A DNA stretch of 38,980 bases from Deltaproteobacteria bacterium (GTDB taxonomy: Bacteria; Desulfobacterota; GWC2-55-46; UBA9637; GWC2-42-11), in contig JACRNI010000008.1 in assembly GCA_016234925.1 (NCBI GenBank), forward strand, positions 1-38,980. Reading direction: 5' to 3'. The notes under the pieces are model-generated. The model was not told the DNA's origin. It searched no databases and was given only the letters and a program-made list of their open reading frames with translations. Positions within the stretch are counted from its first letter, which is position 1. The number at the start of each line of letters is the position of its first letter. Shown in pieces: positions 2,075 through 26,567 of the stretch. The translations under genes were made by a program, and so were the position numbers.

Positions 2075-2920
2075 TTGCATTTAGATAAAAAAACAAAAAC
2101 TGCGCTAAATGCAATAAGGAATAAGACTAAAAAAATTAGTGGTATTGGAATCATACTTGGCTCTGGTTTTGGCAGGTTTGCAGATAGGTTAAAAAATGCA
2201 GATGAAATATATTACAGAGACATACCGCATCTTGCTGCGCCAAATGTTGCCGGACACAAAGGCAGACTTGTAATTGGAGAAATTAGAGATAAGGTTGTAT
2301 TTGTATTTGACGGAAGGCTGCATCTCTACGAGGGACATTCAGTTGAAGAAGTGGTTTTCCCTGTAAGGATTTTAAACGCACTCGGCATTAAAAATCTTAT
2401 TGTTACATGCTCTAGCGGCGGCATATCAAACAAACTGAATAAAGGTGATATGTTTTTTATAGACGACCATATAAACCTGCTAGGTGTGAACCCATTAACA
2501 GAACTTATTAAACATGCCCCTGCAGGTATTAAGCAGGGGAAGGCGGGGAGCGATGTATTTATTGATATGACATATGCCTATGAAAGATGGATGTTTAAAG
2601 ACCTCTCGAAATATGCAAAATCAATCGGCATTAAATTGCAAAGTGGTGTTTTGTGCGCTGTTCATGGGCCTAGTTATGAGACACCTGCTGAGATAAAGAT
2701 GTTAAAGATCATTGGCGCAGACGCAGTATGCATGTCAACTGTTCCAGAGGTAATAATGGCAAAATATCTTGGCATGAAGGTCATTGGGCTTTCGCTTATT
2801 ACAAACACAATAAAAAATAAACATACAACCCATGCGGATGTTGTAAGGACTGCAAAAGAAGGCAGCAAGGGATTTGGCGATTTATTGGAAAGGGCAGTGT
2901 TATTATTTAGTTCACGCTGA
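2075..2920 (+). CDS. punA: purine-nucleoside phosphorylase (MTAP/PNP family)
   Basis: This trimeric-type phosphorylase cleaves purine nucleosides with phosphate in purine salvage. Visible family motifs are GSGFG (phosphate loop), GHKGRLVIG, FDGRLHLYEGHS, VTCSSGGI, and VCMSTVPEVI followed by LSLITN. The Asn and the MSTVPE context favour PNP over methylthioadenosine phosphorylase. The start is uncertain: TTG at 2075 just after the rodZ stop gives 281 aa, and an in-frame TTG at 2042 would overlap rodZ. An extra peptide APAGIKQG, encoded by a 24-bp palindrome at 2516-2539, sits between the NPLT region and VFIDMT, where homologues are shorter. The stop codon lies inside the next repeat element. 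A cytidine deaminase follows, so the pair forms a nucleoside-salvage group. Confidence 0.85.
   Translation: MHLDKKTKTALNAIRNKTKKISGIGIILGSGFGRFADRLKNADEIYYRDIPHLAAPNVAGHKGRLVIGEIRDKVVFVFDGRLHLYEGHSVEEVVFPVRILNALGIKNLIVTCSSGGISNKLNKGDMFFIDDHINLLGVNPLTELIKHAPAGIKQGKAGSDVFIDMTYAYERWMFKDLSKYAKSIGIKLQSGVLCAVHGPSYETPAEIKMLKIIGADAVCMSTVPEVIMAKYLGMKVIGLSLITNTIKNKHTTHADVVRTAKEGSKGFGDLLERAVLLFSSR
2516..2539 (+). repeat. 24-bp coding palindrome, copy in punA
   Basis: The halves are GCCCCTGCAGG and TAAGCAGGGG around a 3-nt centre. It is in codon phase 0 and encodes APAGIKQG. It shares the 24-nt length, phase and orientation of copies in four other genes (peptidase-MA, mtnA, lysS, msbA). Confidence 0.8.
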
Positions 2921-3034
2921 AAAATACTCATCTACTTCGTTGGCTTCGTCGCTGTGCTGCTCACATACCTAAAAGAGTATGCTCCGCTGCTCGCTCCTTG
3001 CCGCCTCGTATCTGAGATATTTTTGAGTGTGAAC
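2910..3034. repeat. ~125-bp inverted-repeat element (family C, copy 1)
   Basis: The outer arms GTTCACGCTGAAAAATACTC and, inverted, GTTCACACTCAAAAATATCT pair over about 25 bp. The centre is a small palindrome (CATACCTAAAAGAGTATG). The preceding gene's stop codon lies in the left arm, and the right arm ends just before the cytidine deaminase gene. No ORF is contained. Sister copies are at 20374, 26563, 32136 and 34878, with a variant at 8440. Confidence 0.8.
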
Positions 3035-3068
3035 TTTGATGAAGGTATTTTTCAATATTAACTATTTA

Positions 3069-3464
3069 ATGAAAGCCAAGACAGACAATAAGGATTTAAT
3101 AGGCATTGCAGAAAAGGCAAGACAGAACGCTGTTGCTGATTTTTCTGGTTTCCGTGTCGGGGCTGCAATACTTGCAGATGATGGAAGGGTTTTTACAGGA
3201 TGCAATGTTGAAAATCCGTCTTTAATGCTTACAATATGCGCTGAAAGGGTTGCGATATTAAAGGCATTATCAGAGGGCGCAAGAAGTTTCAAAAAAATAG
3301 CGGTTTTTGCAGCAAGGAATCCTTGTTTCCCATGCGGTTCTTGCAGGCAGATGCTTTTTGAATTTGCGCAAGGATTAGAGGTTATTACAGTTGATTCAAC
3401 AGGCAGGATAAAATGCGTCAGGATTGATAAACTTTTGCCAAAGGCATTCAAATATAAGAAATAA
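3069..3464 (+). CDS. cdd: cytidine deaminase
   Basis: A cytoplasmic zinc enzyme deaminating cytidine and deoxycytidine to uridine forms. The zinc ligands and catalytic Glu are visible in CAERVA and in PCGSCRQ, and the N-terminal FSGFRVGAAI and GCNVEN substrate-binding motifs are intact. From ATG 3069 the protein is 131 aa, the normal length of homotetrameric CDAs. In-frame TTG 3036 or ATG 3039 would add about ten residues derived from sequence abutting the upstream repeat, so 3069 is preferred. It pairs with the upstream nucleoside phosphorylase in salvage. Confidence 0.9.
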   Translation: MKAKTDNKDLIGIAEKARQNAVADFSGFRVGAAILADDGRVFTGCNVENPSLMLTICAERVAILKALSEGARSFKKIAVFAARNPCFPCGSCRQMLFEFAQGLEVITVDSTGRIKCVRIDKLLPKAFKYKK

Positions 3465-3479
3465 TCTTTTGGGGGCTAA

Positions 3480-4202
3480 ATGGAAACCATCACAAGATGC
3501 AGAAAATGCGGAAAAAAGATGAAAAGCGAAAGGGTTGATGACTATAGGATAAAACTTTCATGCTCATGCGGGTTCTGGGAGTTCAAGACAATGCCATCAG
3601 CAAGCAAGACAATAAACCCATACTATCCAAAGGACGCTTTTTCTCATGTAAAGGTTGCTGAAGAAGGCGGGCTTGTTTTTGAGATGGAAAAGGCAAACCG
3701 GGAAAAAAGAGAGATTATAACGCTTGAAGAAATCAGCATGCTTGCGAGTTCTGATTATGAACTGGATGATGTTCTGCAGACTGTTGTGGAAAAGACCGCA
3801 AAGAGGCTTGGCGTGGATGTCTCGTCAATATATCTCTGGGATGGAAAGGAACTTGTTTTGACGGCTACCACAAGTTTTAGAAAAGAGGCGATTGGAAAGG
3901 TTCGTCTTAAAATAGGGGAGGGGGTTACAGGCGCTGCCGCAAAAGAAGGCAAGCCCATTGTTGTAAAGGATGTGTCCAAAGATGCTAGATATAAGAAGTT
4001 TGCTGAATTAAGAGAGCAGGAATATACCACAATGCTGTCCCATCCGATTATCCATAAAGGCGAACTCTTTGGCGTCCTTAATGTGCAGACAGTTGAGCCA
4101 AAGGAATTTCAGGAAGATGAGATTTATTTCATATCAATCATTGCAAATCTTTTGCTCGGCGCAATAAGGATAAGAAAGGCTCAAGCGCCAAAGAAGCCGT
4201 GA
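3480..4202 (+). CDS. zinc-ribbon / GAF-domain protein
   Basis: A 240-residue protein. The first 35 residues hold CRKC and CSC pairs (Cys 7, 10, 28, 30), which look like a small zinc ribbon. From about residue 85 to 235 there is a GAF domain with typical LDDVLQTVVEKTAKRLGVDVSSIYLWD and GVTGAAAKEGKPI blocks. GAF domains bind small ligands or mediate dimerisation. No kinase, cyclase or HTH output domain is attached, so the role is unknown. It overlaps the next gene by a GTGA start/stop and is probably co-translated with it. It follows cdd by 15 bp. Confidence 0.75.
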   Translation: METITRCRKCGKKMKSERVDDYRIKLSCSCGFWEFKTMPSASKTINPYYPKDAFSHVKVAEEGGLVFEMEKANREKREIITLEEISMLASSDYELDDVLQTVVEKTAKRLGVDVSSIYLWDGKELVLTATTSFRKEAIGKVRLKIGEGVTGAAAKEGKPIVVKDVSKDARYKKFAELREQEYTTMLSHPIIHKGELFGVLNVQTVEPKEFQEDEIYFISIIANLLLGAIRIRKAQAPKKP

Positions 4203-5236
4203 TTAAGCGGATTACAGCCCTTACCATATTTCTGCTGATTATAATCGGCGGTATATTCCTGTTTTACAAGCCGTCTGAAAAAGTGCCTGCTGATAATCCT
4301 GTCCCTGCAAGTTTTAAGCAGGGGGAAATTGCATCAATTCCAGAGAAAAATGCTGGCACTTATGAGCCAGAAAATCCAGCAAATATTGATAAACTAAAAT
4401 CCGATGTTATACAAAAAGAAATTTCAGAAAAGATTTCAGAATCATTTGCCAGCCAGAAAACTCAAGATGAAAAACCATTAAATCCAGAAGCCAGTCCTGC
4501 TGTTCAGCAGAGAAAACCTTCTTTTGATATTGCAGACGACCATGTTTCAAAAAATTTTCAGCAAAATGACGGAAGCCATTTTACTGTAAAGATTGAAGGC
4601 TCTGAAAATGCAGTTGTAGGGCAGATTATTATGATTTTACTTGAAGAGGCATATATAAAGATTGGGGGGGATTTGGGTTATTATCCGGAAGACAAGATTA
4701 CAGCAGTCCTTTACAGCAAAGAGCAGTTCAGCGATGTTACAAAAAGCCCGTCATGGGTAAGCGCCTTATATGACGGCAGGATAAAACTCCCTGTCGGCGG
4801 CATAACGCAGAGGACAAATCTTCTTGAAAAGGTCTTGTTCCATGAATACACGCATGCCATTGTCCACAGGCTTTCAAAAGGCAGGGCGCCGACATGGCTG
4901 AATGAAGGCATTGCGCAATATGAAGACGGCACGAGAGGCAGTGAATACGCAGAGATATTGGCATCTATTGCAGACAACAAGATTTCTGTCAGCCTCATGG
5001 CCATTGAAGGCTCTTTTATGGGCTTGAATGCTGCTTCTGTTCAAGTTGCATACATTGCAAGCATTTCAGCGGCAGAATATATTATAAATGAATTCGGGAT
5101 TAGCGCTGTCAGAAACATATTTGAAAGAATCGGCAATGGAGAACCATTAAGCAGCGCAGTCTCAAACAGCCTTCATATGTCTTATGCAGACCTTCAGGCA
5201 AGTTGGCTCAGGAATTTGAAAAATAGATACAGGTAA
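4199..5236 (+). CDS. peptidase-MA-like membrane-anchored metalloprotease
   Basis: A 345-residue protein with an N-terminal transmembrane anchor (about residues 5-23), a low-complexity linker (25-120) and a gluzincin-type domain. The zinc motif HEYTH is at about 215-219 and the third ligand Glu lies in WLNEGIAQYEDG (about 233-244), the arrangement of the peptidase-MA (M1-like) family. It is probably an envelope-facing protease; the substrate is unknown. The start is GTG at 4199, overlapping the GAF gene stop. A coding palindrome at 4301-4324 adds VPASFKQG to the linker. The gene ends directly against the convergent mtnA with no spacer. Confidence 0.78.
   Translation: MIKRITALTIFLLIIIGGIFLFYKPSEKVPADNPVPASFKQGEIASIPEKNAGTYEPENPANIDKLKSDVIQKEISEKISESFASQKTQDEKPLNPEASPAVQQRKPSFDIADDHVSKNFQQNDGSHFTVKIEGSENAVVGQIIMILLEEAYIKIGGDLGYYPEDKITAVLYSKEQFSDVTKSPSWVSALYDGRIKLPVGGITQRTNLLEKVLFHEYTHAIVHRLSKGRAPTWLNEGIAQYEDGTRGSEYAEILASIADNKISVSLMAIEGSFMGLNAASVQVAYIASISAAEYIINEFGISAVRNIFERIGNGEPLSSAVSNSLHMSYADLQASWLRNLKNRYR
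4301..4324 (+). repeat. 24-bp coding palindrome, copy in peptidase-MA gene
   Basis: The halves are GTCCCTGCAAG and TAAGCAGGGG, in codon phase 0, encoding VPASFKQG in the linker after the membrane anchor. It is the same type as copies in punA, mtnA, lysS and msbA. Confidence 0.8.
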
Positions 5237-6301
5237 TTACTTTCCAAACAACCCCTTCAAACTCTTTTCAAAAGATTTTTTTGCTATCCCTTTTTCAGTG
5301 ATGATAGCAGTTATAAATTTATTAGGCGTTACATCAAAGGCAGGGTTTTTAACCTTTATATTATGAGGCGCAATCTGGATGTTTTTCCCCTGCTTAATGC
5401 TTGCAGGGGCAGGTATATGTGTAACCTCTCTTGTGTCTCTTTCTTCAATCGGTATCTTATCTCCGTTTTTGATTTTTAAATCAATAGTTGATAAAGGCGC
5501 TGCAACATAAAATGGGATTTTATGCTCTTTTGCTAAAACTGCAACAGAATATGTTCCGATTTTATTTGCAGTATCGCCATTAGCAGCAATCCTGTCAGCG
5601 CCGACAATCACCAAATCAATAAGCCCCTTTTTCATCATATAGCCTGCCATGTTGTCAGTTATAAGCGTTACATCAATATTATCTTTCATAAGTTCCCATG
5701 CAGTTAATCTTGAACCTTGAAGAAACGGTCTTGTCTCATCTGCAAACACCTTTATTTTTTTCCCATCTTCAACTGCTGCCCTTATAACACCAAGCGCTGT
5801 GCCGTATCCTGCGGTTGCCAATGCGCCTGCATTGCAGTGAGTAAGAATCGTATCACCGCTTTTTATGAATTTACTCCCATTCCTCCCCATCTGTTTATTT
5901 ATTAAAATATCCTCTTTATGGATAGTCTTTGCCTCTTGAACAAGTCTTTGCTTCAATTCTTCTATGTTTAATTTTGGGTTTTTTCTGACAACCCCCTTCA
6001 TCCTCTCAACTGCCCAGAAAAGATTTACTGCTGTCGGTCTTGTTGATGCAATGACCTTGCAGACATTTTCAAATGTCTTCAAAAATCCTTTTTTATTTTT
6101 TGTCTTTATATCCAATGCGCCTAATGCAATGCCCATTGCTGCCGCAACGCCAATTGCAGGCGCGCCCCTCACAACCATCTCCCTTATCGCCTCTGCAACA
6201 TCAAGAAAGTCTTTATATTTTCTATAGACCTCTTGTGTAGGCAAAAGCCTCTGGTCAATCATCACGACACTGTTATTTTTCCATTCAATTGTTTTGAACA
6301 T
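5237..6301 (-). CDS. mtnA: S-methyl-5-thioribose-1-phosphate isomerase
   Basis: This methionine-salvage enzyme converts 5-methylthioribose-1-phosphate to the ribulose form and is related to eIF2B subunits. Signature blocks are [30 protein letters not shown] with the catalytic Cys, [17 protein letters not shown], and [18 protein letters not shown] with the catalytic Asp. The start ATG at 6301 is preceded by GGAGGA. Length is 354 aa, slightly long because a 24-bp palindrome inserts APASIKQG (about residues 298-305) between EVTHIP and the conserved IAP...NPAFDVTP block. It is the last gene of the minus-strand gatB / AsmA-like / mtnA set. Confidence 0.92.
5387..5410 (-). repeat. 24-bp coding palindrome, copy in mtnA
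   Basis: On the coding strand it reads GCCCCTGCAAG, a 3-nt centre, then TAAGCAGGGG. It is in codon phase 0 and encodes APASIKQG in a surface-loop position where homologues lack these residues. Confidence 0.8.
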
Positions 6302-6324
6302 TTAATCCTCCAATGAATTGATTG

Positions 6325-6380
6325 CACAGATTAAAATATAAATCAGTGTAATCGGTTTTTAGAATCTGTGTAATCTGTGT
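6325..6380. repeat. ACAGATT/AATCTGTG word palindrome ending the AsmA-like gene
   Basis: Repeated CACAGATT / AATCTGTG words form an imperfect hairpin between mtnA and the AsmA-like gene. The last ~12 codons of the AsmA-like ORF are read from it, so it probably arrived after the gene was cut. Confidence 0.55.
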
Positions 6381-6903
6381 TTCTCTTAAAACTTACATCC
6401 TGCAATTTCTTAATCTCTCCATTTCCTAAATCTATCTTCGCATCTTTGATTATTACATTGTCAATGCCAAATGATGCGATGATTGGTTTTAATAGATGCG
6501 CAGATTCCTTTTCTCCGACCTTTAAAAAATATTTCAGGTTTTTGTCAGATTGTAAATAAAATGTCGGGGAATTCAAAACAATGCCTGCAATGTCTATATT
6601 TCCAGATAAAATAGACAGCAGGTTGATTTTTACATCAACTGCTGCTGCATTTGCAAATATTTTATCTGACGCCTCTTTTGACTTATAAATCTTTACATCA
6701 TTTATCCTTATGCCAGGACCTTGCCATATCAAAAATCCAATATGTCCTGCCTCAATCTTTTTCCCAATCCTGTTTTCAATTACAGGCAGATAATCGGATT
6801 TGTATTTATCAAGGTCAATGATGAAAGGTATTGTTACGATGGCTAGAAAAATTGCAAAAATCAGGCAGAGGCTTGCAATGCCGATTATTTTTAGGAACTG
6901 CAT
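6343..6903 (-). pseudogene. AsmA/DUF748-like membrane protein, probably 3'-truncated
   Basis: The N-terminus has a transmembrane helix (about residues 3-27) followed by the AsmA-type N-terminal domain (IDLDKYKSDYLPVIENRIGKKI, then a typical V.I..L..ILSG.I.I..I.L..P pattern). Such proteins are usually 600-1,100 aa and bridge the periplasm in lipid transport. Here the ORF stops at 186 aa and its last ~12 residues are translated from repeated ACAGATT words. It may be a remnant or a short stand-alone domain. The start ATG directly abuts the gatB stop, suggesting coupling. Confidence 0.6.
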
Positions 6904-8406: not shown

Positions 8407-8439
8407 CTTGATGCTCCTGTGTAAAAGCAAAGTAAAATT

Positions 8440-8742: not shown

Positions 8743-8819
8743 CGGGGCGTGGCTCAGTCTGGTAGAGCACTGCGTTCGGGACGCAGGGGCCGGAGGTTCG
8801 AATCCTCTCGCCCCGACCA
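8743..8819 (+). tRNA. tRNA-Pro (anticodon CGG)
   Basis: The cloverleaf is complete. The acceptor CGGGGCG pairs with CGCCCCG, the anticodon stem CTGCG/CGCAG encloses loop TTCGGGA (anticodon CGG), the T arm is GGAGG-TTCGAAT-CCTCT, and the CCA end is encoded. The last 21 nt are repeated twice downstream (8999-9019 and 9198-9218), the pattern expected where elements integrate at a tRNA 3' end. Confidence 0.95.
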
Positions 8820-9019
8820 TTAAAAACAGGGGTTAGGGATTAGGTGTTAGGGGTTAGTTAGACATTAAATAAAGGCAAAAGAGGATTCGAAGCGAGGCAG
8901 CCGCCGAACAAATGTGAGGAAAAGCAGACAGGATGTCTGCGGCAGGCTGCCGAGGTGAGCCTACGCAGACTTTGGCAGGAAGCCAAAGGCGTAGTAGGCG
9001 AATCCTCTCGCCCCGACCA
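8820..9019 (+). mobile_element. 200-bp tRNA-Pro 3'-end module 1
   Basis: The module starts directly after tRNA-Pro and ends in an exact copy of the tRNA 3'-terminal 21 nt including CCA (8999-9019). Its first ~63 nt (a GGGGTTAGGGATTAG-type spacer ending ...GGCAAAAGAG) are repeated identically in module 2. The rest is a GC-rich structured segment inserted between the two halves of a T arm: GAGGATTCGA before, CGAATCCTC after. It has no ORF. It is called mobile because the tRNA 3' end repeat looks like an attachment core; no integrase is in the window. Confidence 0.55.
8881..9007 (+). ncRNA. Candidate structured RNA in module 1 (unrecognised class)
   Basis: Predicted pairings are: P1 8881-8889 with 8999-9007 (9 bp perfect), P2 8896-8902 with 8945-8951, P3 8924-8929 with 8935-8940 capped by AGGAT, P4 8960-8966 with 8989-8998, and P4a 8970-8976 with 8982-8988 capped by AGGAA. 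A 21-nt unpaired linker (8903-8923) between P2 and P3 is 17/21 identical to that of module 2, while the stems differ but still pair. The strand and whether it is transcribed are inferred from the adjacent tRNA. Confidence 0.5.
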
Positions 9020-9218
9020 TTAAAAACAGGGGTTAGGGATTAGGTGTTAGGGGTTAGTTAGACATTAAATAAAGGCAAAAGAGAGGTTCGAAGCCAGTTT
9101 CACGCCGAGTAAATGCGAGGATAAGTCCGCAGGGATGCGGACGAAAGTGAAACTGGCCGGGTCTGAAGGAAAAAGCAGGATGCTTTTGACTGAAGACCGA
9201 ATCCTCTCGCCCCGACCA
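9020..9218 (+). mobile_element. 199-bp tRNA-Pro 3'-end module 2
   Basis: The arrangement matches module 1: an identical spacer from 9020 to about 9083, a divergent structured segment, then an exact copy of the tRNA 3'-terminal 21 nt (9198-9218). The 5' T-arm half here reads GAGGTTCGA, closer to the intact tRNA-Pro T arm than module 1. Confidence 0.55.
9083..9206 (+). ncRNA. Candidate structured RNA in module 2 (unrecognised class)
   Basis: Predicted pairings are: P1 9083-9090 with 9198-9206 (one bulge), P2 9093-9103 with 9147-9157 (11 bp), P3 9125-9130 with 9137-9142 capped by AGGGAT, and P4 9160-9164 with 9194-9198 plus an inner stem 9171-9176 with 9182-9187 capped by AGGAT. The linker 9104-9124 is 21 nt, the same length as in module 1, with GCCGA, AAATG and GAGGA conserved. 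Every stem shows compensatory change relative to module 1. Confidence 0.5.
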
Positions 9219-9283
9219 AAAAACAGAAATAAGAAATCAGAGATTAGGAATTGGCAAGAAAAAATTAGAGGCAAGAGAGGATT

Positions 9284-9453: not shown

Positions 9454-10962
9454 ATGGAACAAAGAAGCGAAGAAGAATTAAACAGGATAAAAAAACTTGA
9501 AGGTTTGAAAGGCATAGGGATAAATCCATTTCCTAATGACTTCAAGGTCAAAGATACAACCGCTGATATTATAAACAAATTCGGCAGTCTTACAAAAGAA
9601 GAACTGGATGCAAAAAACGATGCAATTACAGTTGCAGGGAGGATTATTGCAATCCGGGACTTTGGCAAGGCATCTTTCATTCATATTCAAGACAGGCTTG
9701 GCAAGATTCAGACATATATTAAGAAAGATATAATCGGAGATGAGGCGTATAATCTATACAAACATATTGATATCGGCGATATAGTTGGAATTTCTGGCAA
9801 GGTCTTTCGCACAAAGACAAATGAATTAACGATTGAGGCAAAAGAATTAAGACTCCTTACAAAATCTTTAAGGCCTTTGCCTGAAAAATGGCACGGTCTG
9901 ACTGATGTTGAGACAAGATACCGTCAGAGGTATGTTGATTTAATTGTCAACCAAGAGGTTCGGGATGTATTTCTAAAAAGGGTAAAAATCATTCAGCTCA
10001 TCAGGCAGTTTTTAAATAAAATAGATTTTATAGAGGTTGAAACGCCGATGATGCAGTCAATCCCCGGAGGCGCGGCTGCAAAGCCGTTCAAAACCCATCA
10101 CAATGCGCTTGGGATGGACTTGTATTTAAGGATTGCGCCTGAATTATATCTTAAAAGGCTTGTTATAGGCGGTTTTGAAAGGGTTTATGAAATAAACAGA
10201 AACTTTAGAAACGAGGGCATATCAACACAGCACAACCCTGAATTCACAATGCTTGAGTTTTACCTTGCACACGCAACATTTGAAGATTTAATGGATTTGA
10301 CTGAAGAGATGATTGCATCCGTTGCAAGAGAAATCTGCGGCACATTAAAGATTGAATATCAGGGCAAAGAAATAGATTTAACCCCACCTTGGCAGAGGAT
10401 AAGCGTTAAAGATGCAATATTGAAATACAGCAGCGCCAGCGAAGATATTTTTAATGATAAAAATAAGGCAATAAGATTTGCAAAAGAGTTGAATTTAAAG
10501 ATGCCTGTCCCTGCAGGCTTTAAGCAGGGATTGGAAGGTTTAAGCCACGGCAATATTATTTTAGAAATCTTTGAGCATGTTGCAGAGCCTAAATTTATCC
10601 AGCCTACATTTGTAACCCATTATCCCCTTGATGTATCCCCGCTTTCAAGAAAGACGGAGAAAGACCCGACAACCGTTGACAGATTTGAACTCCTTGTCGC
10701 AGGCAGAGAAATCGCAAATGCGTTTTCAGAATTAAATGACCCGATTGACCAGAAAGAAAGATTTGTCCAGCAGGTAAAAGAAAAAGAGGCAGGCGATGAA
10801 GAGGCGCACCTTATGGATGATGATTTTATAAGGGCCCTTGAATATGGAATGCCGCCGACAGCAGGAGAAGGCATAGGCATAGACAGGCTTGTGATGCTTT
10901 TAACAAATTCAGCGTCAATAAGAGATGTTATATTGTTCCCGCAGTTGAGAGAAAGGTTATAG
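9454..10962 (+). CDS. lysS: lysyl-tRNA synthetase, class II
   Basis: Charges tRNA(Lys) with lysine. It has an N-terminal OB-fold anticodon domain (about residues 55-165, VAGRIIAIRDFGKASFIHIQD) and a class II catalytic core with motif 2 FRNEGISTQHNPEFTMLEFY and motif 3 GIGIDRLVMLLT. The 502-aa length is normal to slightly long. A 24-bp palindrome at 10507-10530 adds VPAGFKQG in a variable loop before the conserved EIFE..EPKFIQPTF block. The start ATG at 9454 follows an AGAGGGG stretch that can serve as a ribosome site. Confidence 0.95.
   Translation: MEQRSEEELNRIKKLEGLKGIGINPFPNDFKVKDTTADIINKFGSLTKEELDAKNDAITVAGRIIAIRDFGKASFIHIQDRLGKIQTYIKKDIIGDEAYNLYKHIDIGDIVGISGKVFRTKTNELTIEAKELRLLTKSLRPLPEKWHGLTDVETRYRQRYVDLIVNQEVRDVFLKRVKIIQLIRQFLNKIDFIEVETPMMQSIPGGAAAKPFKTHHNALGMDLYLRIAPELYLKRLVIGGFERVYEINRNFRNEGISTQHNPEFTMLEFYLAHATFEDLMDLTEEMIASVAREICGTLKIEYQGKEIDLTPPWQRISVKDAILKYSSASEDIFNDKNKAIRFAKELNLKMPVPAGFKQGLEGLSHGNIILEIFEHVAEPKFIQPTFVTHYPLDVSPLSRKTEKDPTTVDRFELLVAGREIANAFSELNDPIDQKERFVQQVKEKEAGDEEAHLMDDDFIRALEYGMPPTAGEGIGIDRLVMLLTNSASIRDVILFPQLRERL
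10507..10530 (+). repeat. 24-bp coding palindrome, copy in lysS
   Basis: The halves are GTCCCTGCAGG and TAAGCAGGGA, in codon phase 0, encoding VPAGFKQG at about residues 352-359 of LysS. Confidence 0.8.
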
Positions 10963-13675: not shown

Positions 13676-13761
13676 GTGATGAGTTAAAGAGTTGGAGAGT
13701 TATGGAGTTAAAACTCCTAAACTCCTAAACTCCTAAACTCCTAAACTCCTAAACTCCTACG
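13676..13761. repeat. Octamer array and hairpin before lolD
   Basis: Left-hand GAGTT words (GAGTTAAAGAGTTGGAGAGT) face six perfect tandem copies of AAACTCCT (13711-13758), giving a long hairpin that ends three bases before the lolD start. No Shine-Dalgarno is present before that ATG. Confidence 0.75.
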
Positions 13762-17220: not shown

Positions 17221-17320
17221 AAAAAGTTTTGGAGTTTAAGAGTTAAGGAGTTTAGGAGTTAGAAATTAATCGTTTAACTCCTCAACTCTCTAACTCCTTT
17301 ACTCTGAAACTCAAATTAAT
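17221..17320. repeat. Word-repeat hairpin between bamA and ompH
   Basis: GGAGTTTAAGAGTTAAGGAG words face TTAACTCCTCAACTCTCTAAC words, forming a long imperfect stem. The ompH ribosome site TAGGAGG follows outside it. Confidence 0.55.
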
Positions 17321-17871: not shown

Positions 17872-18900
17872 ATGGAAAAGAGCCTGAATGAACTTGCTAA
17901 AATTGTCAATGGCGAGGCAATTGGCCATGGTTCTGTATTGATAAACGGCGCTGCAGGCATAGAAGATGCTAAATCCGGGCAGATAACATTTATTGCAAAT
18001 CCGAAATATGCGCATCTTTTGTCAAAGACTTTAGCATCTGCTGTTATTGCCTCGCCTGATATTGCCCAAACATTAAAGGGTAAAAATATACTCTGCGTTA
18101 AAAATCCTTATCTTGCATTTGCAAAGGTGCTTAAGGAATTCACTCCAATTGAAAAATTATATCAGGGCATACATCCAAACACAGAAATCAACTCTGATGT
18201 TCAAATTGGTTCATCTCCCTCAATATATCCGAATGTGTATATTGATGAAGGCGCAAGGATTGGTTCAAGGGTTGCATTATACCCAGGGGTTTATGTGGGT
18301 AGAGATGTTCATATAGATGATGATGCGCTTATATATTCAAATGTATCAATAAGGGAAAGGTGCAAAATCGGCAAGAGGGTTATTATTCACTGTAATTCAG
18401 TGGTCGGCAGCGACGGCTTCGGTTTTGCAAAGGATGGGTCAAAACTTTATAAAGTTCCGCAAACTGGCATAGTTCGCATTGAGGATGATGTTGAGATAGG
18501 CGCATGCGTGACAATAGACAGGGCGACTCTTGGCGAGACAGTGATAAAACGCGGCACAAAGATAGACAACCTTGTTCAGATTGCCCACAATGTTGCAATT
18601 GGCGAGGATTCTATCATTGTTGCGCAGGTTGGCATATCAGGAAGCACAAAGATAGGAAACAGGGTTACGCTTGCAGGTCAGGTTGGCGCTGCAGGACATA
18701 TTGAAATCGGCGATGATATTGTGATTGGCGCAAAATCTGGTGTTACAAAAGATTTATGTGAAAAAGGTGTATTCTCCGGGTTTCCTGCGATTCCACACAA
18801 AGACTGGCTCAAGGCAGTAAACATATTTGCGAAACTGCCTGAAATGAGAAAGACTATACTGGATTTGGAAAAAAGGGTAAAGGAGTTGGAAAAAGATTAA
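17872..18900 (+). CDS. lpxD: UDP-3-O-(3-hydroxyacyl)glucosamine N-acyltransferase
   Basis: Third enzyme of lipid A synthesis; it adds the N-linked hydroxyacyl chain. At 342 aa it has an N-terminal uridine-binding domain (about 1-100), a left-handed parallel beta-helix of hexapeptide repeats (about 100-300) and a C-terminal helix (LPEMRKTILDLEKRVKELE). The catalytic His is in VQIAHNV at residue 239, the same number as in the E. coli enzyme. The GFGFAKDG segment is also conserved. Confidence 0.95.
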   Translation: MEKSLNELAKIVNGEAIGHGSVLINGAAGIEDAKSGQITFIANPKYAHLLSKTLASAVIASPDIAQTLKGKNILCVKNPYLAFAKVLKEFTPIEKLYQGIHPNTEINSDVQIGSSPSIYPNVYIDEGARIGSRVALYPGVYVGRDVHIDDDALIYSNVSIRERCKIGKRVIIHCNSVVGSDGFGFAKDGSKLYKVPQTGIVRIEDDVEIGACVTIDRATLGETVIKRGTKIDNLVQIAHNVAIGEDSIIVAQVGISGSTKIGNRVTLAGQVGAAGHIEIGDDIVIGAKSGVTKDLCEKGVFSGFPAIPHKDWLKAVNIFAKLPEMRKTILDLEKRVKELEKD

Positions 18901-19020
18901 GAGGTTAAGAGATTAAAAGGCTAATAGACTAAAAGGTTAAGAGGTTAAGAGATTAAGAGGTTAAGAGGTTAAAAACCTTTTTACCTTTTAACCTTTTTAC
19001 CTCTTCATCTTTTCACCTTC
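18901..19020. repeat. Word-repeat hairpin between lpxD and fabZ
   Basis: AGAGGTTAAGAGATTAAAAG words repeated about eight times face AAACCTTTTTACC/TTTTAACC words. The fabZ ribosome site GGAGG lies just outside the hairpin. Confidence 0.6.
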
Positions 19021-19467: not shown

Positions 19468-19468
19468 A

Positions 19469-20347
19469 ATGCAGAGTCAGGGCGGGTACCCGTCCAAAGG
19501 ACGGGTGGGGATCAAAGGTCAAGAGATAAAAATACATCCAACTGCCATTATCCACCCAGACGCAGAGATAGGAGATGATGTAGAAATAGGCGCATATTCT
19601 ATCATTGGAGAAAATGTAAAGATTGGCAGTAATGTCAAAATACATCCCCATGTTGTTATTGACGGCTGGACAACCATTGGCAAGGGTTGCAGTATATACC
19701 AGTTTGCATCCATTGGCGCGCCTCCCCAAGATTTGAAATTTGGCGGTGAAAAATCAGAGGTTGTAATCGGAGAAAATAATACAATAAGGGAATTTGTCAC
19801 AATAAACAGGGCAACCCTGCACGGCGGCGGAAAGACTATTATAGGAAATAACAATTTTCTGATGGCATATGTGCATGTAGCGCATGACTGCAAGATTGGC
19901 AGCCATATTGTGCTCGCAAATGCAGCGACACTTGCAGGACACATTGAGGTGTTTGACCATGTCATCATAGGCGGGCTTGTCGCAGTTCACCAGTTTGCTA
20001 GGATAGGCTCTTATTCAATTGTGGGAGGGGCTTCAGCAGTTACGCACGATATACCTCCGTATGTTATGGCTGTCGGCAACAGGGCGAAACTTTACGGACT
20101 GAACAAGATAGGACTGCGAAGGCATGGTTTTTCCAGAGAGGAGATAACAAACCTTAAAAAGGCATATGACATAATCTTTAGAAATGGAATGGGTCTCAAA
20201 GATGCCCTGGAAAAGGTTGGTAAAGAAATAAAAGATTCTGCGCATATAAAAAACCTGATAGAATTTATTAAGAATTCAAAAAGAGGCATAACAAGGGCAA
20301 AACCTACCAGCAGAGAAGAAGGAGCGGATGAAGTTGAAGAAGATTAG
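19469..20347 (+). CDS. lpxA: UDP-N-acetylglucosamine O-acyltransferase
   Basis: First enzyme of lipid A synthesis. Hexapeptide beta-helix (about residues 22-205) with catalytic His in VHVAHDC (residue 139 here) and the C-terminal helical domain (GLNKIGLRRHGFSREEI). Length is 292 aa against about 260 usual. Two oddities explain this: the first ~17 residues (GGYPSKGRVG) come from a hairpin repeat at 19480-19510, and the C-terminus has an extra charged tail (TSREEGADEVEED). The repeat appears to have been placed at the start of the gene, so the present ATG may not be ancestral. Confidence 0.93.
   Translation: MQSQGGYPSKGRVGIKGQEIKIHPTAIIHPDAEIGDDVEIGAYSIIGENVKIGSNVKIHPHVVIDGWTTIGKGCSIYQFASIGAPPQDLKFGGEKSEVVIGENNTIREFVTINRATLHGGGKTIIGNNNFLMAYVHVAHDCKIGSHIVLANAATLAGHIEVFDHVIIGGLVAVHQFARIGSYSIVGGASAVTHDIPPYVMAVGNRAKLYGLNKIGLRRHGFSREEITNLKKAYDIIFRNGMGLKDALEKVGKEIKDSAHIKNLIEFIKNSKRGITRAKPTSREEGADEVEED
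19480..19510 (+). repeat. Coding hairpin (GGYPSxGxVG type) at the start of lpxA
   Basis: A GGGCGGGT-ACCCGTCC / GGACGGGT hairpin (19488-19506) is followed by GGGGATCAAAGGTCAAG words. It encodes GGYPSKGRVG and matches the gatB element in sequence and phase. Confidence 0.75.
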
Positions 20348-20373
20348 CAGGTTGATGAAAAACTCAAAATTTG

Positions 20374-20500
20374 TTCAGGCTGCTCAAAAACGTCCAGATG
20401 CGAGGCGTCGAGAAGCGACGAATGAGGCGCACTTTGTTGTGCGCCACAGTTAGGAGCGACGATGACAACGAAGCAGATGGGCGTTTTTCAGCAGCCTGTT
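20374..20500. repeat. ~127-bp inverted-repeat element (family C, copy 2) spanning the gfo/idh start
   Basis: The left arm TTCAGGCTGCTCAAAAACGT and the right arm, inverted, AACAGGCTGCTGAAAAACGC pair over about 28 bp. The centre is GGCGCACTTTGTTGTGCGCC. The right arm contains GGAG and the ATG at 20462, and is translated as TTKQMGVFQQP at the N-terminus of the next gene. Confidence 0.78.
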
Positions 20501-21437
20501 AGGGTTGGGGTTGTCGGCGTGGGCTATCTCGGTAAATTTCACGCAGAAAAATATTCAAATATCCCTGATGTTGAATTGGTCGGTGTCTGCGATATTGATA
20601 AAAAGGCGGCGGATGAAACTGCATTAAAATTCAATACAAAGGCATTTTATGATTATAAAAATCTGTTTGGCCATGTTGATGCAGTCAGCATTGTTGTCCC
20701 GACACAGATGCATCATGCCATTGCAAAAGACTTCATTGAAAACAAGATAGACTGCCTTATAGAGAAGCCGATAACAACAACAATTGAAGAGGCGGATGAC
20801 CTGATAAGTCAGGCTGAAAAAAAAAGTGTGATACTGCAGGTCGGACACCTTGAAAGATTCAATCCGGCGATTACTGCATTAGGCAGCAGGGTTAATAACC
20901 CTATGTTTATTGAATCTGACAGGCTTGCGCCGTTTAACATAAGAGGGACTGATGTATGTGTTGTGCTTGATTTGATGATACATGACATAGACATTATATT
21001 AAACCTTGTAAATGCAGATGTTGTAAAAATAGACGCAGTAGGCGTGCCTGTCATATCAAAAGAGGCTGACATAGCAAATGCGCGGATAGAATTCAGCTGT
21101 TACTGCAAGCAGGATTTCAAGGGAGAAACTGCGCAAGATGAGGATATTTCAAAGCGATGCATATATCTCAATTGATTACATGCAGCAAAAGATAACAGCA
21201 TTAAAACTTGTCCCCGAACGCTTTAATCGGGGAATGGATAAAGACGGGAGCCTGCCAAATATAATTGAGGATAATCTTGACATAGAAAAAGGGGATTCCC
21301 TTATGACCGAGATTAAGGCATTTGTCCATTCGGTTGCAACAAGAAAAGAACCGCCTGTTACAGGCAGAGACGGAAAAAGGGCTTTAGAAGTGGCAATCAA
21401 GATAAAGGAGTGCCTTGTAAAAACAGGCAATAGGTAA
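20462..21437 (+). pseudogene. Gfo/Idh/MocA-family oxidoreductase (GnnA-like position), frameshifted
   Basis: NAD-binding Rossmann fold (VGVVGVGYLGKFH), the EKP motif (CLIEKPITT) and MIHDID are typical of the family. The first frame ends at 21175, but the family's later region continues in another frame that can be read upstream as TASRISREKLRKMRIFQSDA and on to 21437. Bases have been lost, or miscalled, near 21097-21110, in the block normally encoding a CGC..N.TASR segment. It lies between lpxA and lpxB, where GnnA (oxidising UDP-GlcNAc for a 3-amino lipid A) is found in some bacteria. No GnnB aminotransferase is seen. The N-terminus comes from a repeat. Confidence 0.8.
21210..21233 (+). repeat. 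24-bp coding palindrome variant in gfo/idh gene
   Basis: The halves are GTCCCCGA and TCGGGGA around ACGCTTTAA. It has the same 24-nt length and phase as the CCCTGC type and encodes VPERFNRG in the second-frame part of the oxidoreductase. Confidence 0.7.
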
Positions 21438-21461
21438 TAGGCAATAAAAAACATAGCCTAT

Positions 21462-22604
21462 ATGAAAAAACTTCTCATAGTTGCAGGCGAGGCGTCTGGC
21501 GACCTTCATGGCTCAAACCTTATAAAATCCATTCTTGAAATAGACCCTTCAATCAGACTTTACGGCATAGGCGGAAGCAGGATGCAATCGCTTGGCTTCA
21601 ATGCTGTCTTTGATTCCAAAGACCTTTCTGTTGTCGGCATTGTTGAGGTTTTAGCCAAACTGCCAACAATAAAAAAGGCATTTGATAGATTAAAAAATAT
21701 CCTTGATAATGACATGCCTGATGCAGTTGTGCTGATAGATTATCCTGATTTCAACCTTCGTTTTGCAAAAGAGGTAAAAAAAAGGAATATCCCTGTTGTA
21801 TATTACATAAGCCCTCAGGTCTGGGCATGGAGAAAAGGGAGGGTTAAAAAGATTGTGCGGCTTGTTGACAAGATGCTGGTCATCTTTCCATTTGAGGAAA
21901 AGATTTATAAGGATGCCGGATTAGATGTTGAATATGTTGGGCATCCGCTTGTTGATGAGGTGAAATGCAGTCTTTCAAAAAAAGAGGCAAGGGAGCGGCT
22001 TGAGATTGAATATGATAAAAAGGTTATTGCTATCGCCCCTGGCAGCAGGGAGAGCGAAATCAGCCGCATCATGCCGGAGATATTGGGCGCTGCTAAAATA
22101 TTGAAAAGAGAAATCCCAGATATAGAGTTTATCCTTCCGCTTGCAAACACGCTTACACGGGATTTTATAGAGCGTTTTTTAAAAGATATTCCAATCAAGA
22201 TATTTGAAAACAAGATGTATGAAGTAATGAGGGCATCTGATATTGCAATAGTCGCATCCGGCACAGCAACGTTAGAAACAGCCTTGATGGAAACTCCGAT
22301 GGTGGTTGTTTATAAGGTCTCTCCCATTACATATTGGATAGGCAGGATGCTTGTCCATGTTGCTCATATAAGCCTTGCAAACATAGTTGCAGGCAAAAGG
22401 ATTGTGCCGGAATTGCTCCAGAATGACGCAAATCCGAGTAAAATTGCAGATGAGGTTTTAAACATATTGAAGAATACGGATATTTATAATAATATGACTG
22501 CTGGATTAAAAACAGTGAGGGAAAAACTTGGCAAAGGCGGCGCATCAAAAAACGCCGCAGAGGCAATACTGAAAACTCTAAACGACAAGGGATCAAGGGG
22601 GTAG
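21462..22604 (+). CDS. lpxB: lipid-A-disaccharide synthase
   Basis: GT19 glycosyltransferase that joins UDP-diacylglucosamine and lipid X to the lipid A disaccharide. At 380 aa it has the hallmarks AGEASGDLHGSNLI, YYISPQVWAWRKGRVKKI, FPFEEKIY, YVGHPLVDEV, LPGS-like APGSRESEI and ASGTATLETAL. The last residues (KGSRG) are read from GGGATCAAGGGGG repeat words at the edge of the next intergenic palindrome, suggesting the 3' end was trimmed by the repeat. No Shine-Dalgarno is visible before ATG 21462. Confidence 0.94.
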   Translation: MKKLLIVAGEASGDLHGSNLIKSILEIDPSIRLYGIGGSRMQSLGFNAVFDSKDLSVVGIVEVLAKLPTIKKAFDRLKNILDNDMPDAVVLIDYPDFNLRFAKEVKKRNIPVVYYISPQVWAWRKGRVKKIVRLVDKMLVIFPFEEKIYKDAGLDVEYVGHPLVDEVKCSLSKKEARERLEIEYDKKVIAIAPGSRESEISRIMPEILGAAKILKREIPDIEFILPLANTLTRDFIERFLKDIPIKIFENKMYEVMRASDIAIVASGTATLETALMETPMVVVYKVSPITYWIGRMLVHVAHISLANIVAGKRIVPELLQNDANPSKIADEVLNILKNTDIYNNMTAGLKTVREKLGKGGASKNAAEAILKTLNDKGSRG

Positions 22605-22700
22605 AGGGGTCAAGGATTCGAGGTAGCCGCAGGCTTTATGCCTGCGTTAAAACGCAACCGTAAAGGTTGCGGCTACCAGAACCCTTGATCCCTTGAATCC
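22586..22700. repeat. Nested palindrome with 56-bp double-hairpin element, copy 2
   Basis: The core at 22622-22677 has outer stem GGTAGCC/GGCTACC and inner hairpins CGCAGGC-TTTAT-GCCTGCG and CGCAACC-GTAAA-GGTTGCG. It is flanked by GGGATCAAGGG / CCCTTGATCCC words. It fills the lpxB-msbA spacer. Confidence 0.8.
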
Positions 22701-22709
22701 TATTTTCTT

Positions 22710-24542
22710 ATGAAACTCTATTTTAAACTTCTAAAATTTGTTGTGCCGCATTGGCTTTGTCTTGCCGGGGCAATATGCTGCATGATATTGCTCGCTCTTT
22801 CTACAGGTGCAATGGCATATCTAATCGGGCCCGTGCTAAAGTTTCTTTTTACAAACGAGGGCGGCGATATAATAAAGATCATACCTTTTGGACTCCTTGA
22901 TATTGACAGGGCAAGCATGATAATCGCCATCCCTCTCTTGATTATTGCAGTGGCTGTTATAAAAGGTGTTTCATTTTTTTGGCAGTCATATCTAATGGGT
23001 TATGTTGGACAAAGGGTTGTTTTAGATATAAGGGAAAAACTCTATAAACATATGCTTGCCATGCCGATACCATTTTTTACAAAGACGCACACAGGCAGCC
23101 TCATATCAAGGGTTACAAATGATGTAAACCAGATACAAAACACTGCGACAGATTCCCTTGCATCTTTGATTAGAGAGAGTTTAACTATCATTGTCCTTGC
23201 GGCAGTTGTCATTAAGCAGGACTGGAAACTTGCGGCAATTGCATTTATTGCATTCCCGCTTGCTGTTTATCCAATGATAAGGTTTAGCAAGAAACTCAGA
23301 AAGGTAAGCACTCAGGGGCAGGTAACAATGGGGACAATAACATCTCTTCTGCAGGAGGCAATCTCCGGCATAAGGATAGTCAAGGCATTCTGCATGGAGG
23401 CATATGAGGAAATCAGGTTTAATAAAGAGAGCGAAAGGCTGAATAAACTACAGATGAAGTCAATAAAAGTCCGGGCAGTCTCATCGCCGATGATGGAGAT
23501 GTTCGGGGTTGTTGGATTTGCAGCAACCATCTGGTATGCGTCATATCGGATAAATATGGGCGATTTAACACCAGAGGGGTTTATATCGTTTTTTGCAGCA
23601 GTCCTCATGCTGTATCAGCCGATAAAGGCATTGAACGGTGTGAACCTTAATATCCAGAAAGGGCTTGCTGCTGCATCAAGGGTGTTTGAAATATTAGAGA
23701 TGCAGGAGGAGAAAAAGGATAAATCTGGCGCTGTTGAATTAGAGGACATAACAAATGAGGTTGCATTTAAAGATGTTTCTTTTAAATACGGCGAGAACCT
23801 TGTCCCTGCAAGCAGTAAACAGGGATGGGTTTTAAAAGATATAAATCTCAATGTGAAAAAAGGCGAGATTATTGCCATTGTCGGCACAAGCGGCGGCGGT
23901 AAAACAACGCTTGTAAATCTTATCCCAAGATTTTATGATGTTGTAGATGGCTCAATAATAATAGACGGCATTGATACAAGGGATATTAAATTAAAATCTT
24001 TGCGTGAGCAGATAGCCATTGTTTCTCAGCAGGTAATCTTGTTCAATGACACGGTCAAGAGAAATATTGCCTACGGCGATTTTGCAAAAACAGACGAGGA
24101 AATAATTATGGCTGCAAAGGCTGCAAATGCCCATAATTTCATAGAAAGACTGCCGGAAGGTTATAACACCGTTATTGGCGAGGGGGGTGTAAGGCTTTCT
24201 GGAGGGGAAAGGCAGAGACTTTCTATTGCAAGGGCGATCTTAAAAAATGCGCCGATTTTGATATTGGACGAGGCAACCTCATCCCTTGATACTGAATCAG
24301 AGATGGAGGTGCAAAAAGGGCTTAATAATCTTATGCAAGGCAGAACAACATTTGTTATTGCGCACAGGCTTTCCACAATAAGAAACGCAGACAGAATAAT
24401 AGTCCTTGCGCATGGCACAATAAAAGAAGAAGGCAGACACGAAGAACTTTTAAAACTGAACGGCGAATATTTCCGCATCTACAATATGCAGTTTCATGAT
24501 GTTTCAAAAGAATCTTCAAATACTGAAAAGGCAGCGACATAA
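22710..24542 (+). CDS. msbA: lipid A flippase ABC transporter MsbA
   Basis: A half-transporter (homodimer) that flips lipid A-core across the inner membrane. At 610 aa it has an ABC exporter membrane domain with six helices (about 15-310) and a nucleotide-binding domain with Walker A GTSGGGKTT, signature LSGGERQR, Walker B ILILDEATSSLD and His in VIAHRLSTI. A 24-bp palindrome at 23802-23825 inserts VPASSKQG between FKYGEN and VLKDI, right in the beta-strand region that positions the A-loop; the A-loop aromatic in FKYG is retained. No Shine-Dalgarno precedes ATG 22710. Confidence 0.92.
   Translation: MKLYFKLLKFVVPHWLCLAGAICCMILLALSTGAMAYLIGPVLKFLFTNEGGDIIKIIPFGLLDIDRASMIIAIPLLIIAVAVIKGVSFFWQSYLMGYVGQRVVLDIREKLYKHMLAMPIPFFTKTHTGSLISRVTNDVNQIQNTATDSLASLIRESLTIIVLAAVVIKQDWKLAAIAFIAFPLAVYPMIRFSKKLRKVSTQGQVTMGTITSLLQEAISGIRIVKAFCMEAYEEIRFNKESERLNKLQMKSIKVRAVSSPMMEMFGVVGFAATIWYASYRINMGDLTPEGFISFFAAVLMLYQPIKALNGVNLNIQKGLAAASRVFEILEMQEEKKDKSGAVELEDITNEVAFKDVSFKYGENLVPASSKQGWVLKDINLNVKKGEIIAIVGTSGGGKTTLVNLIPRFYDVVDGSIIIDGIDTRDIKLKSLREQIAIVSQQVILFNDTVKRNIAYGDFAKTDEEIIMAAKAANAHNFIERLPEGYNTVIGEGGVRLSGGERQRLSIARAILKNAPILILDEATSSLDTESEMEVQKGLNNLMQGRTTFVIAHRLSTIRNADRIIVLAHGTIKEEGRHEELLKLNGEYFRIYNMQFHDVSKESSNTEKAAT
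23802..23825 (+). repeat. 24-bp coding palindrome, copy in msbA
   Basis: The halves are GTCCCTGCAAG and TAAACAGGGA, in codon phase 0, encoding VPASSKQG at the start of the ATPase domain. Confidence 0.78.
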
Positions 24543-24543
24543 A

Positions 24544-25202
24544 ATGAAATCTTTTCTGGATAAAATTACAATGACAGCAGTTCCATATCTTGGCTATCTC
24601 TTTATAAGATTTCTAGAAAAGACCATGAGAATTTCATATGTGAATTTTGAAAACATATGGAAAGACTGGCAGGACAACAAAAAGTGTGTTTTGGCATTCT
24701 GGCACGGAAGGCTGATGATGATGCCTCTTATGTATAAAGGAAATGGAATTACAGTGCTTGTAAGCCAGCATAAAGACGGCGAACTTGTCAGCCGAACAAT
24801 GAAAAGATTTAATATAGACTCTGTCAGGGGGTCGTCCACAAGGGGCTGGTTTGGAGGCGTAAAAGGGCTTTTAAAAGACGCAAGAAAAGGGCGCGACCTT
24901 GCCATAACGCCTGACGGCCCAAAAGGACCGAGGTATAAGGCGCAGATAGGAATAATCAATATTGCGAAAAATACAGGACTCCCAATATTCCCGATAGCAT
25001 TTTCTGCCTCAAAAAAAAAACTTTGAAGAGTTGGGACGCATTTATAATTCCCTATCCATTTTCAAAAGGCGTTTTTATTTGCGGCGAGCCGATTATTGTA
25101 AATGCTGATTCAAGCCCTGAAGCATTAGAAGAAAAAAGACTTATCCTTGAAAAGACTTTAATAGACATAACTGAAAGGGCGGATAACTATTTTAGAGGCT
25201 GA
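24544..25202 (+). pseudogene. DUF374 lysophospholipid acyltransferase-like protein, frameshifted at a poly-A run
   Basis: The first frame from ATG 24544 (just after the msbA stop) has the acyltransferase motifs FWHGRLMM and ITPDGPKGPR and ends at 25026 just after a run of ten A (25011-25020). The family C-terminus (SWDAFIIPYPFSKGVFICGEPI, here split from its start) continues in the next frame to the TGA at 25200-25202. Eleven or eight A's would restore one ~220-aa protein. This could be a sequencing error, an on/off slippage switch or transcriptional slippage. The likely role is acyl transfer to a lipid or lipid A precursor. Confidence 0.8.
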
Positions 25203-25247
25203 TAACCGAATTTCTTTGACTCTCTGACCCTCTGACTCTCTGATACC

Positions 25248-26567
25248 ATGTATCTCATCTACGACATCTTTATTCATCTATCCTTCATCCTTTTCCTACC
25301 ATATTTTCTCTTTAAGATAATCTTTGTCGGCAAGTATAGAAAAGGGATGCTTGAAAGATTTGGTTTTATAGCCAATGAAAAGGTAATCTCCAATAAAAAT
25401 AGAATTTGGTTTCATGCAGTGTCTGTTGGCGAGACAAAGGCAGTTATGCCGCTTTTAAAAATGTTTAAACAGAGACATCCTGATATATGTATAATCTTTT
25501 CAACAACCACGTATACTGGAAATAAAGTTGCAAGGGATTACGGCATCGGATGTATGGACTCAATCATCTATTTTCCGTTAGATTTTTCATGGGTTGTTAA
25601 AAGGGTTGTAGATAAAATAAATCCAAAGGCATTGATAGTTGTTGAAAAGGAGATATGGCCGAATATCCTGAATGTTTTAAACAGCAAGGGAATTCCCATT
25701 ATTGTTGTAAATGGCAAAATCTCTGACCGTTCATTCAAGAGGTATGTCTTTTCTGGTTTTTTCTTTAAAAGGATTTTTCAAAACATAACCGCCTTTTGCG
25801 GACAGACAAACAAAGATTGTGAAAGGGCGGTTAAGGTCGGGATTGACCCTAAAAGAATATTTGTTACAGGCAATATAAAGTTTGATATGGAAACACAGAG
25901 TTTAAATTATGATGAGAAAGAGAAGATTATGCAGACAATGGGCATAACTAATTCTGATATTGTTTTCGCTGCAGGCTCTACGCACAAAGGAGAAGAAGAT
26001 ATAATCCTTGATGTATTTGGCAGATTAAAGAATGAAATAAAAAATCTTAAACTTATAATCGCGCCGAGACATCCTGAAAGATTTAAAGAGGTTGAAAATC
26101 TAATAAAAAACAAAGGTTTCTCTTTTTTAAAAAGAACTGAATCTCTCAACCCTCAACTCTCCCCTGCTTACAACCTGCAGGGGCAGGCAACTCTCAACTC
26201 TTATGATGTTATCTTCCTTGATACAATCGGCGAACTTGGAAAGATTTACAGCCTTGCAAATGCCGCATTTGTCGGCGGCAGTCTTGTTAATGTCGGCGGC
26301 CACAATCTATTAGAGCCTGCGCTCCATAAAAAACCTGTGATATTTGGACCGCATATACAAACCTTTTCTGAAGGGGCTGACATGCTTACAAAGGGCGGCG
26401 GCGGCATAATGGTGAAGGACAGCAATGAACTTGAGGAAAGGTTAAGGCAGATATTTTTACATGACAGCCTTGCGCAAAAGATTGGAGAGGCAGGATATAA
26501 GGTGATTGAATTAAACAGAGGGGCAGCGGAAAAAAGCCTTGAAATAATAGAAAGGGTCATGAGTTGA
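25248..26567 (+). CDS. waaA: 3-deoxy-D-manno-octulosonic acid (Kdo) transferase
   Basis: GT30 glycosyltransferase adding Kdo to lipid IVA at the inner membrane. At 439 aa it has an N-terminal membrane helix (about 5-28), WFHAVSVGETKAV with the catalytic Glu region, VEKEIWPN, VNGKISDRSF, VTGNIKFD, APRHPERF and GGSLVNVGGHNLLEPA. A reverse-oriented 24-bp palindrome, nested in CAACTCT words (26,141-26,200), adds about 20 residues including SPAYNLQGQ before the conserved FLDTIGELG. The stop codon lies in the next inverted-repeat element. Confidence 0.94.
   Translation: MYLIYDIFIHLSFILFLPYFLFKIIFVGKYRKGMLERFGFIANEKVISNKNRIWFHAVSVGETKAVMPLLKMFKQRHPDICIIFSTTTYTGNKVARDYGIGCMDSIIYFPLDFSWVVKRVVDKINPKALIVVEKEIWPNILNVLNSKGIPIIVVNGKISDRSFKRYVFSGFFFKRIFQNITAFCGQTNKDCERAVKVGIDPKRIFVTGNIKFDMETQSLNYDEKEKIMQTMGITNSDIVFAAGSTHKGEEDIILDVFGRLKNEIKNLKLIIAPRHPERFKEVENLIKNKGFSFLKRTESLNPQLSPAYNLQGQATLNSYDVIFLDTIGELGKIYSLANAAFVGGSLVNVGGHNLLEPALHKKPVIFGPHIQTFSEGADMLTKGGGGIMVKDSNELEERLRQIFLHDSLAQKIGEAGYKVIELNRGAAEKSLEIIERVMS
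26161..26184 (-). repeat. 24-bp coding palindrome, inverted copy in waaA
   Basis: On the plus strand the halves are CCCCTGCTTA and TGCAGGGGC, the reverse complement of the common type. It is translated as SPAYNLQGQ and is embedded in CTCAACTCT words on both sides, suggesting it landed in an earlier word repeat. Confidence 0.75.

Follow-up and report, generated by a model that had tools for sequence, protein, structure and literature searches.

A probable non-autonomous mobile palindrome of 27 nucleotides in coding and intergenic DNA of an uncultivated deltaproteobacterium

The DNA analysed here comprises 38,980 nucleotides of a Deltaproteobacteria bacterium (contig JACRNI010000008.1, our contig C18 of genome G000); this whole stretch is referred to as the window. 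It carries a short palindromic element within genes of unrelated function. Searching the window with the core pattern CCCYGN7YAANCRGGG retrieved seven exact copies, whereas shuffled sequences contained 0.01 copies on average and none of 100 shuffles reached seven, which upheld a first-pass annotation that had described a dispersed palindrome lying in frame in unrelated enzymes. Six copies are read in the sense of the host gene and one, described earlier as inverted, is indeed antisense to waaA. The copies, with the open reading frames (ORFs) that hold them, are the following:

2513..2539, plus strand: element in punA (purine nucleoside phosphorylase, PNP; ORF 2042-2920), found by pattern; peptide HAPAGIKQG, inserted between codons; site empty in the related genome G001; residues missing from PNP structures.
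4298..4324, plus strand: element in a peptidase-MA gene (ORF 4199-5236; host family PF13485), found by pattern; peptide PVPASFKQG.
5387..5413, minus strand: element in mtnA (ORF 5237-6301, minus strand; TIGR00512), in sense with the gene, found by pattern; peptide PAPASIKQG.
10504..10530, plus strand: element in lysS (ORF 9454-10962), found by pattern; peptide PVPAGFKQG; site empty in G001-G007; gap in lysyl-tRNA synthetase (LysRS) structures.
21207..21233, plus strand: element in the 3' part of a gfo/idh gene, found by pattern, with a stem of the CCCCGA/TCGGGG class; peptide LVPERFNRG.
23799..23825, plus strand: element in msbA (ORF 22710-24542; TIGR02203), found by pattern; peptide LVPASSKQG; gap against ABC transporter structures.
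26161..26187, minus strand: element antisense to waaA (ORF 25248-26567, plus strand), found by pattern; read as SPAYNLQGQ; site empty in G001, G002 and G003.
398..424, plus strand: decayed copy, in which CCCAGC replaces CCCTGC; it is embedded in a tandem array of AAAGTCA at the 5' end of a TPR ORF (363-1187).

The codon phase was identical in all six sense copies, as had been claimed. The further claim of one orientation held only relative to the genes, since the mtnA copy lies on the minus strand, and a scan of the whole genome showed a bias in phase and in orientation, with exceptions to both. A match to TAAGCAGGG at 26994 was discarded as belonging to an lpxK-like gene, where it natively encodes LSRGYK. 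The gfo/idh gene (20462-21440) is interrupted: ORF 20462-21175 is followed, in a different frame, by 115 codons that hold the element, owing to either a frameshift or an assembly error.

The boundaries of the unit were fixed unambiguously by mtnA, where CATATA-CCTGCCCCTGCAAGCATTAAGCAGGGG-AA in our genome and in G001 corresponds to CATATA-AA in seven relatives. Each unit thus spans 27 nucleotides, or nine codons, and not the 24 nucleotides and eight residues originally assigned to it; the gaps in LysRS and PNP alignments, of 8-9 residues, agree with the larger size. The consensus CYTG-YCCCYGN-ARGYTTTAA-NCRGGGR consists of a 4-nucleotide CYTG tag and, next to it, a hairpin whose 7-bp stem encloses a 9-nucleotide loop. 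Nearly all copies have C[CTA]TG as the tag, and the ARGYTTTAA loop is variable. The hairpin is predicted to be stable, and in 54 distinct copies 99.5% of the stem cells were paired. In three of the seven stem pairs both partners had changed, and none of 500 shuffles attained the 59 double-changed cells observed (shuffled mean 21.8). The covariation score was 0.405 in register and fell to 0.07-0.13 when the register was slid, and the three variable pairs (0/22, 4/18 and 6/16) took the top three places in a mutual-information scan that included wide flanks. Ten well-formed combinations of these pairs were found in our genome and its relatives, so that the copies cannot be derived from a few founder families.

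Throughout genome G000, a metagenome-assembled genome (MAG) of 2.42 Mb in 177 contigs, the pattern was matched by 77 exact copies and its reversed control by none. The hundreds of copies extrapolated earlier from the window were therefore an overestimate. The window is enriched, with seven copies against 1.24 expected from the genome (Poisson p = 3e-4). Each of the ten genomes sampled from the same order carried the family, at 20-120 copies. G001 contains 41 copies, and G024, which belongs to another family, contains 51; most of the class yielded only scattered matches (0-5). The full 27-nucleotide pattern was matched in 14 of 297 genomes of the phylum. Among the named matches listed, most came from groundwater MAGs labelled Deltaproteobacteria (e.g. 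GWC2_42_11), Nitrospinota or Nitrospirae, and others were also present. Spread by phages was discarded, as eight matches in 2.9 million viral contigs is close to the level expected by chance. A search of the open-access literature retrieved no description of this 27-nucleotide element.

Orthologous sites were compared with those of relatives that represent different genera rather than strains. The lysS site was filled in our genome and empty in all seven aligned relatives (G001-G007), that of punA was empty in G001, and that of the antisense copy in waaA was empty in G001, G002 and G003. Copies in dxs and in one gene borne by L001 were likewise filled in our genome and empty in the relatives found. 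The suspicion that the extra peptides might be ancestral was thus not borne out at lysS, punA, dxs or waaA, where every sampled relative had an empty site. Presence and absence also varied among relatives: mtnA was filled in our genome and G001 and precisely empty in the seven others, and exbB (antisense copy) was filled, with identical copies, in our genome and G002 and precisely empty in G001. As the bootstrap value for the branching of our genome, G001 and G002 was 59, precise excision was not retained as the cause of the conflicting mtnA and exbB patterns, being indistinguishable from recombination, loss or ancestral polymorphism.

The gains at lysS, punA, mtnA, waaA, dxs, exbB and other genes measured precisely 27 bp or nine residues in the orthologue alignments, which confirmed that the insertions are clean, and no target-site duplication was detected at the filled and empty orthologous sites (zero in mtnA). 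Comparison with protein structures showed a clean nine-residue gap in LysRS (mpvpagfkq versus nothing) and an eight-residue gap at the punA insertion site in PNP; when MsbA was compared with ABC transporters, the gap fell close to where the nucleotide-binding domain starts. In L173 one copy is nested in another, and deletion of 27 nucleotides restores the older, intact copy CCCTGATTAAAGCCTTCAGGGG. Stacked insertions, nested or adjoining within a single protein, were also observed in the 1236-residue ORF of L173 and in L175 and L178 (e.g. HVPESSNQGAEGRHVPEGLNRG), showing that one loop has been used repeatedly.

Coding as well as intergenic DNA had received insertions, in either orientation, and so had existing copies of the element; the preferred target, AAR^NNNG, was also seen in noncoding copies. 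Intergenic copies lie within tandem arrays of the AAAGTCA type and in the loop formed by a GTCATTCCTGCGAA/AGCAGGAATCC repeat. At L160 2275 (G000:C44), a P-type ATPase-like gene carries a composite insert that is read in frame: the palindrome lies in the loop that a GTCATTGCGAGC...GCGAAGCAATCT repeat forms.

Coding and noncoding copies were assigned by a codon-usage score, whose counts vary with the threshold: 38-57 of the 77 copies in our genome scored as coding, compared with 5-8 of 48 in G024, whose noncoding copies numbered at least 40 (Fisher p = 6e-6 to 3e-10). Elements of the main class begin exactly at a codon boundary, after Lys in 16 of 24 cases, and encode [PLH][VA]P[AE]xx[KN][QR]G. 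This main frame (xPAxxKQG) was used by 24 of 36 coding copies in our genome, against 33% predicted from target preference and stop avoidance (p = 4e-5), and by 31 of 48 when relatives were added (p = 1e-5), that is, by 65-67% overall. The phase had earlier been attributed to the TAA in one forward frame. This cannot be the sole constraint, since several antisense frames and one other sense frame are open and used; the bias also requires the preference for AAR targets and, we infer, purifying selection on the peptide, which accounts most simply for the main-frame excess. Replication strand was rejected as a cause of the sense bias, because the orientation of noncoding copies did not follow local GC skew, a weak proxy for the replication strand (12 of 20 copies in our genome, 20 of 40 in G024); the sense bias therefore probably arises from coding.

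In all 46 sense-frame peptides, residues 4 and 7 were coupled (A-K in 24, E-N in 18, D-N in 2 and V-K in 2), because their codons supply the two partners of a single stem base pair. Together with the covariation of the stem, this coupling indicates that the conserved object is the DNA hairpin and not the peptide.

The search for a mobilising enzyme centred on PF01797 (Y1_Tnp) in 26 genomes. Such genes were present in our genome, which encodes five PF01797 proteins, and in nine of the ten other genomes of the order. To look for a co-occurring neighbour gene, 1211 ORFs lying close to copies were also clustered all against all, and this candidate was rejected: the ten representatives identified came from large, common families (NtrC-type regulators, ABC, TPR, glycosyltransferase and the like) and included no transposase. 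Some Y1 transposase loci of relatives (L228, L377) hold inverted copies of TGGGGACAGATTT...AAATCTGTCCC; these belong to a different, terminal-repeat type of tyrosine transposase.

The element copies to new sites, inserts precisely, prefers a defined target and maintains its stem. It is very probably a non-autonomous mobile DNA palindrome comparable to the repetitive extragenic palindromes (REPs) and the Rickettsia palindromic elements (RPEs), encoding a peptide that host proteins tolerate. The folded single-stranded hairpin would be recognised in trans by an endonuclease or transposase, as is thought for REPs, so that compensatory changes would keep the stem paired while loop and peptide drift. 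Since the unit is nine codons long, has several stop-free frames and targets AAR, a Lys codon (AAA/AAG), it often lands between codons and adds a turn-rich nonapeptide, itself devoid of function, that the protein tolerates; other insertions would be eliminated by selection. Several points weigh against this interpretation. No mobilising enzyme was linked to the element: PF01797 was undetected in the element-rich genomes G001 and G024, although multicopy insertion sequence (IS) genes are often missing from MAGs, and the 45 Y1 loci comprised one with an exact copy and four with loose variants, approximately what we estimate from copy density. In addition, the insertion events themselves were not witnessed, the comparison being one between genera, and the single-stranded DNA step is deduced.

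In order to place the element among known systems, we compared it with four groups of repeats. REPs are GTAG- or CGTC-tagged units of 20-40 nucleotides, found as single units within some ORFs (Di Nocera et al., 2013, PMC3733652). The element shares with them its size range, a tetranucleotide at one foot of the hairpin, complementary stem variants and copy numbers of tens to hundreds. It differs from them in its CYTG tag and 9-nucleotide ARGYTTTAA-like loop, in the lack of a linked REP-associated tyrosine transposase (RAYT), and in its defined AAR^NNNG target with proven empty sites; moreover, REPs are mainly extragenic, whereas the element is mostly coding in our genome, yet mostly noncoding in G024. 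RPEs lie in frame in Rickettsia proteins, those of the RPE-1 type measuring 105-146 bp (Ogata et al., 2000, described in PMC2229807), and RPE-4 and RPE-6 are CGTC REPs (PMC3733652). The resemblance to RPEs noted earlier holds, as does the remark that the element is far shorter: it too is an in-frame palindrome in unrelated conserved genes with orthologous empty sites, occurs also in intergenic DNA and is tolerated by the host protein, but it measures 27 bp, is unrelated in sequence and tag, and inhabits unrelated bacteria. Palindromes derived from IS200/IS605 also have a hairpin end and insert precisely 3' of a short target without target-site duplication; the element, however, has no second end, internal cargo or adjoining Y1 gene, and no strand bias was detected by the GC-skew proxy, which is weak. 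Miniature inverted-repeat transposable elements (MITEs) such as Correia/NEMIS, ERIC, RUP and YPAL are sometimes fused in frame to ORFs (PMC2229807) and are likewise short and non-autonomous, but their length is 70-300 bp, and several of them carry terminal inverted repeats and duplicate the target site, neither of which applies to the element. It works like REPs and Rickettsia palindromes but is a separate family, outside the GTAG/CGTC REP super-families because tag and RAYT linkage fail, and outside the RPEs because sequence and length differ.

Among the other explanations, that of a true REP moved in trans by a RAYT or an IS200/IS605-type Y1 HUH transposase is rather doubtful. The tag-and-hairpin build, the precise insertion without target-site duplication next to a short motif, the alternative complementary stem residues, which resemble those of REP subfamilies (PMC3733652), and the PF01797 genes of the order are all in its favour. 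It is weakened by the tag, by the two element-rich genomes unmatched by PF01797, by the lack of an excess of copies flanking Y1 loci, by an orientation that is not biased with GC skew, and by the AAR target, which breaks the CT/CA rule expected for a T3-G4 tag in the guide model (PMC8266576). Equally tentative is the proposal that the element represents a new class of minimal mobile DNA, with a mover other than RAYT or Y1, whose nine codons, stop-free frames and AAR preference suit it to coding DNA and which has spread between distant lineages; the same 27-mer is carried by G024 and by scattered families of the phylum.

A role of the hairpin, or of a pseudoknot, in mRNA (as a riboregulator, translational pause or bypass) for which the element would have spread appears improbable. 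Its predicted stability and sense bias would suit such a role, but the stems of antisense and intergenic copies are comparably good, and the Rfam scan of the window gave no match besides tRNAs. A tag-loop pseudoknot (RCYT with ARGY) was also rejected, as it can pair in many copies, yet without covariation above that of shuffles. Still less credible is a nonapeptide selected as a functional module (tag, linker or regulator) of host enzymes: although a single reading frame is strongly over-represented, numerous copies lie between genes, run antisense or use another frame, the amino-acid pairs track base pairing and not chemistry, and sister-genus orthologues do without the nonapeptide. Misassembly or binning contamination, which a genome in 177 contigs might suggest, can practically be dismissed, because copies lie within conserved genes with normal flanks, the mtnA and exbB copies recur in the independent genomes G001 and G002, respectively, and the family occurs throughout the sampled order.

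Should the element constitute a new class, a palindrome resident in housekeeping genes would be a recurrent source of nine-residue insertions in an order of uncultivated bacteria. Its filled and empty orthologous sites, nested insertions and measurable target motif make it a clean, well-polarised natural system, suited to studying the movement of very short palindromes and the persistence of selfish DNA in coding sequence. Amino-acid covariation that arises wholly from DNA base pairing could mislead protein coevolution analysis, and the element explains the recurrent odd loops (xPAxxKQG, xPExxNRG) in the proteins of this group.

Other repeats were observed in the same DNA. Tandem arrays of 7-8 nucleotides fill many spacers (window 13711-13759, 17225-17260, 18897-19019, 38255-38294 and 373-397), with units that differ in sequence (AAACTCCT, AGTTTAGG, TTAAGAGG, CAATTTA and AAAGTCA), and they also occur in coding DNA, where a loop of waaA in our genome and its relatives is made of such units. 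Another dispersed repeat, about 110 bp long (GAGTTSAYGCTGAAAAAYGCCCATCTGCT...AAAGTATGCCTCGCTTGAAGCC), is located at 26561-26668, 32134-32240 and 2908-3015, and inverted at 20455-20493; at L161 and L195 a related hairpin (CCCCGACAGTTTCAATCGGGG) lies within it. For tRNA-Pro (cgg), the 3' end together with some 65 bases downstream (8743-8819) is repeated exactly at +200 (8999-9083; 85 bp identical), and a third copy of the 3' end lies at +399 (9190-9218), an arrangement that may be likened to stacked integration scars.

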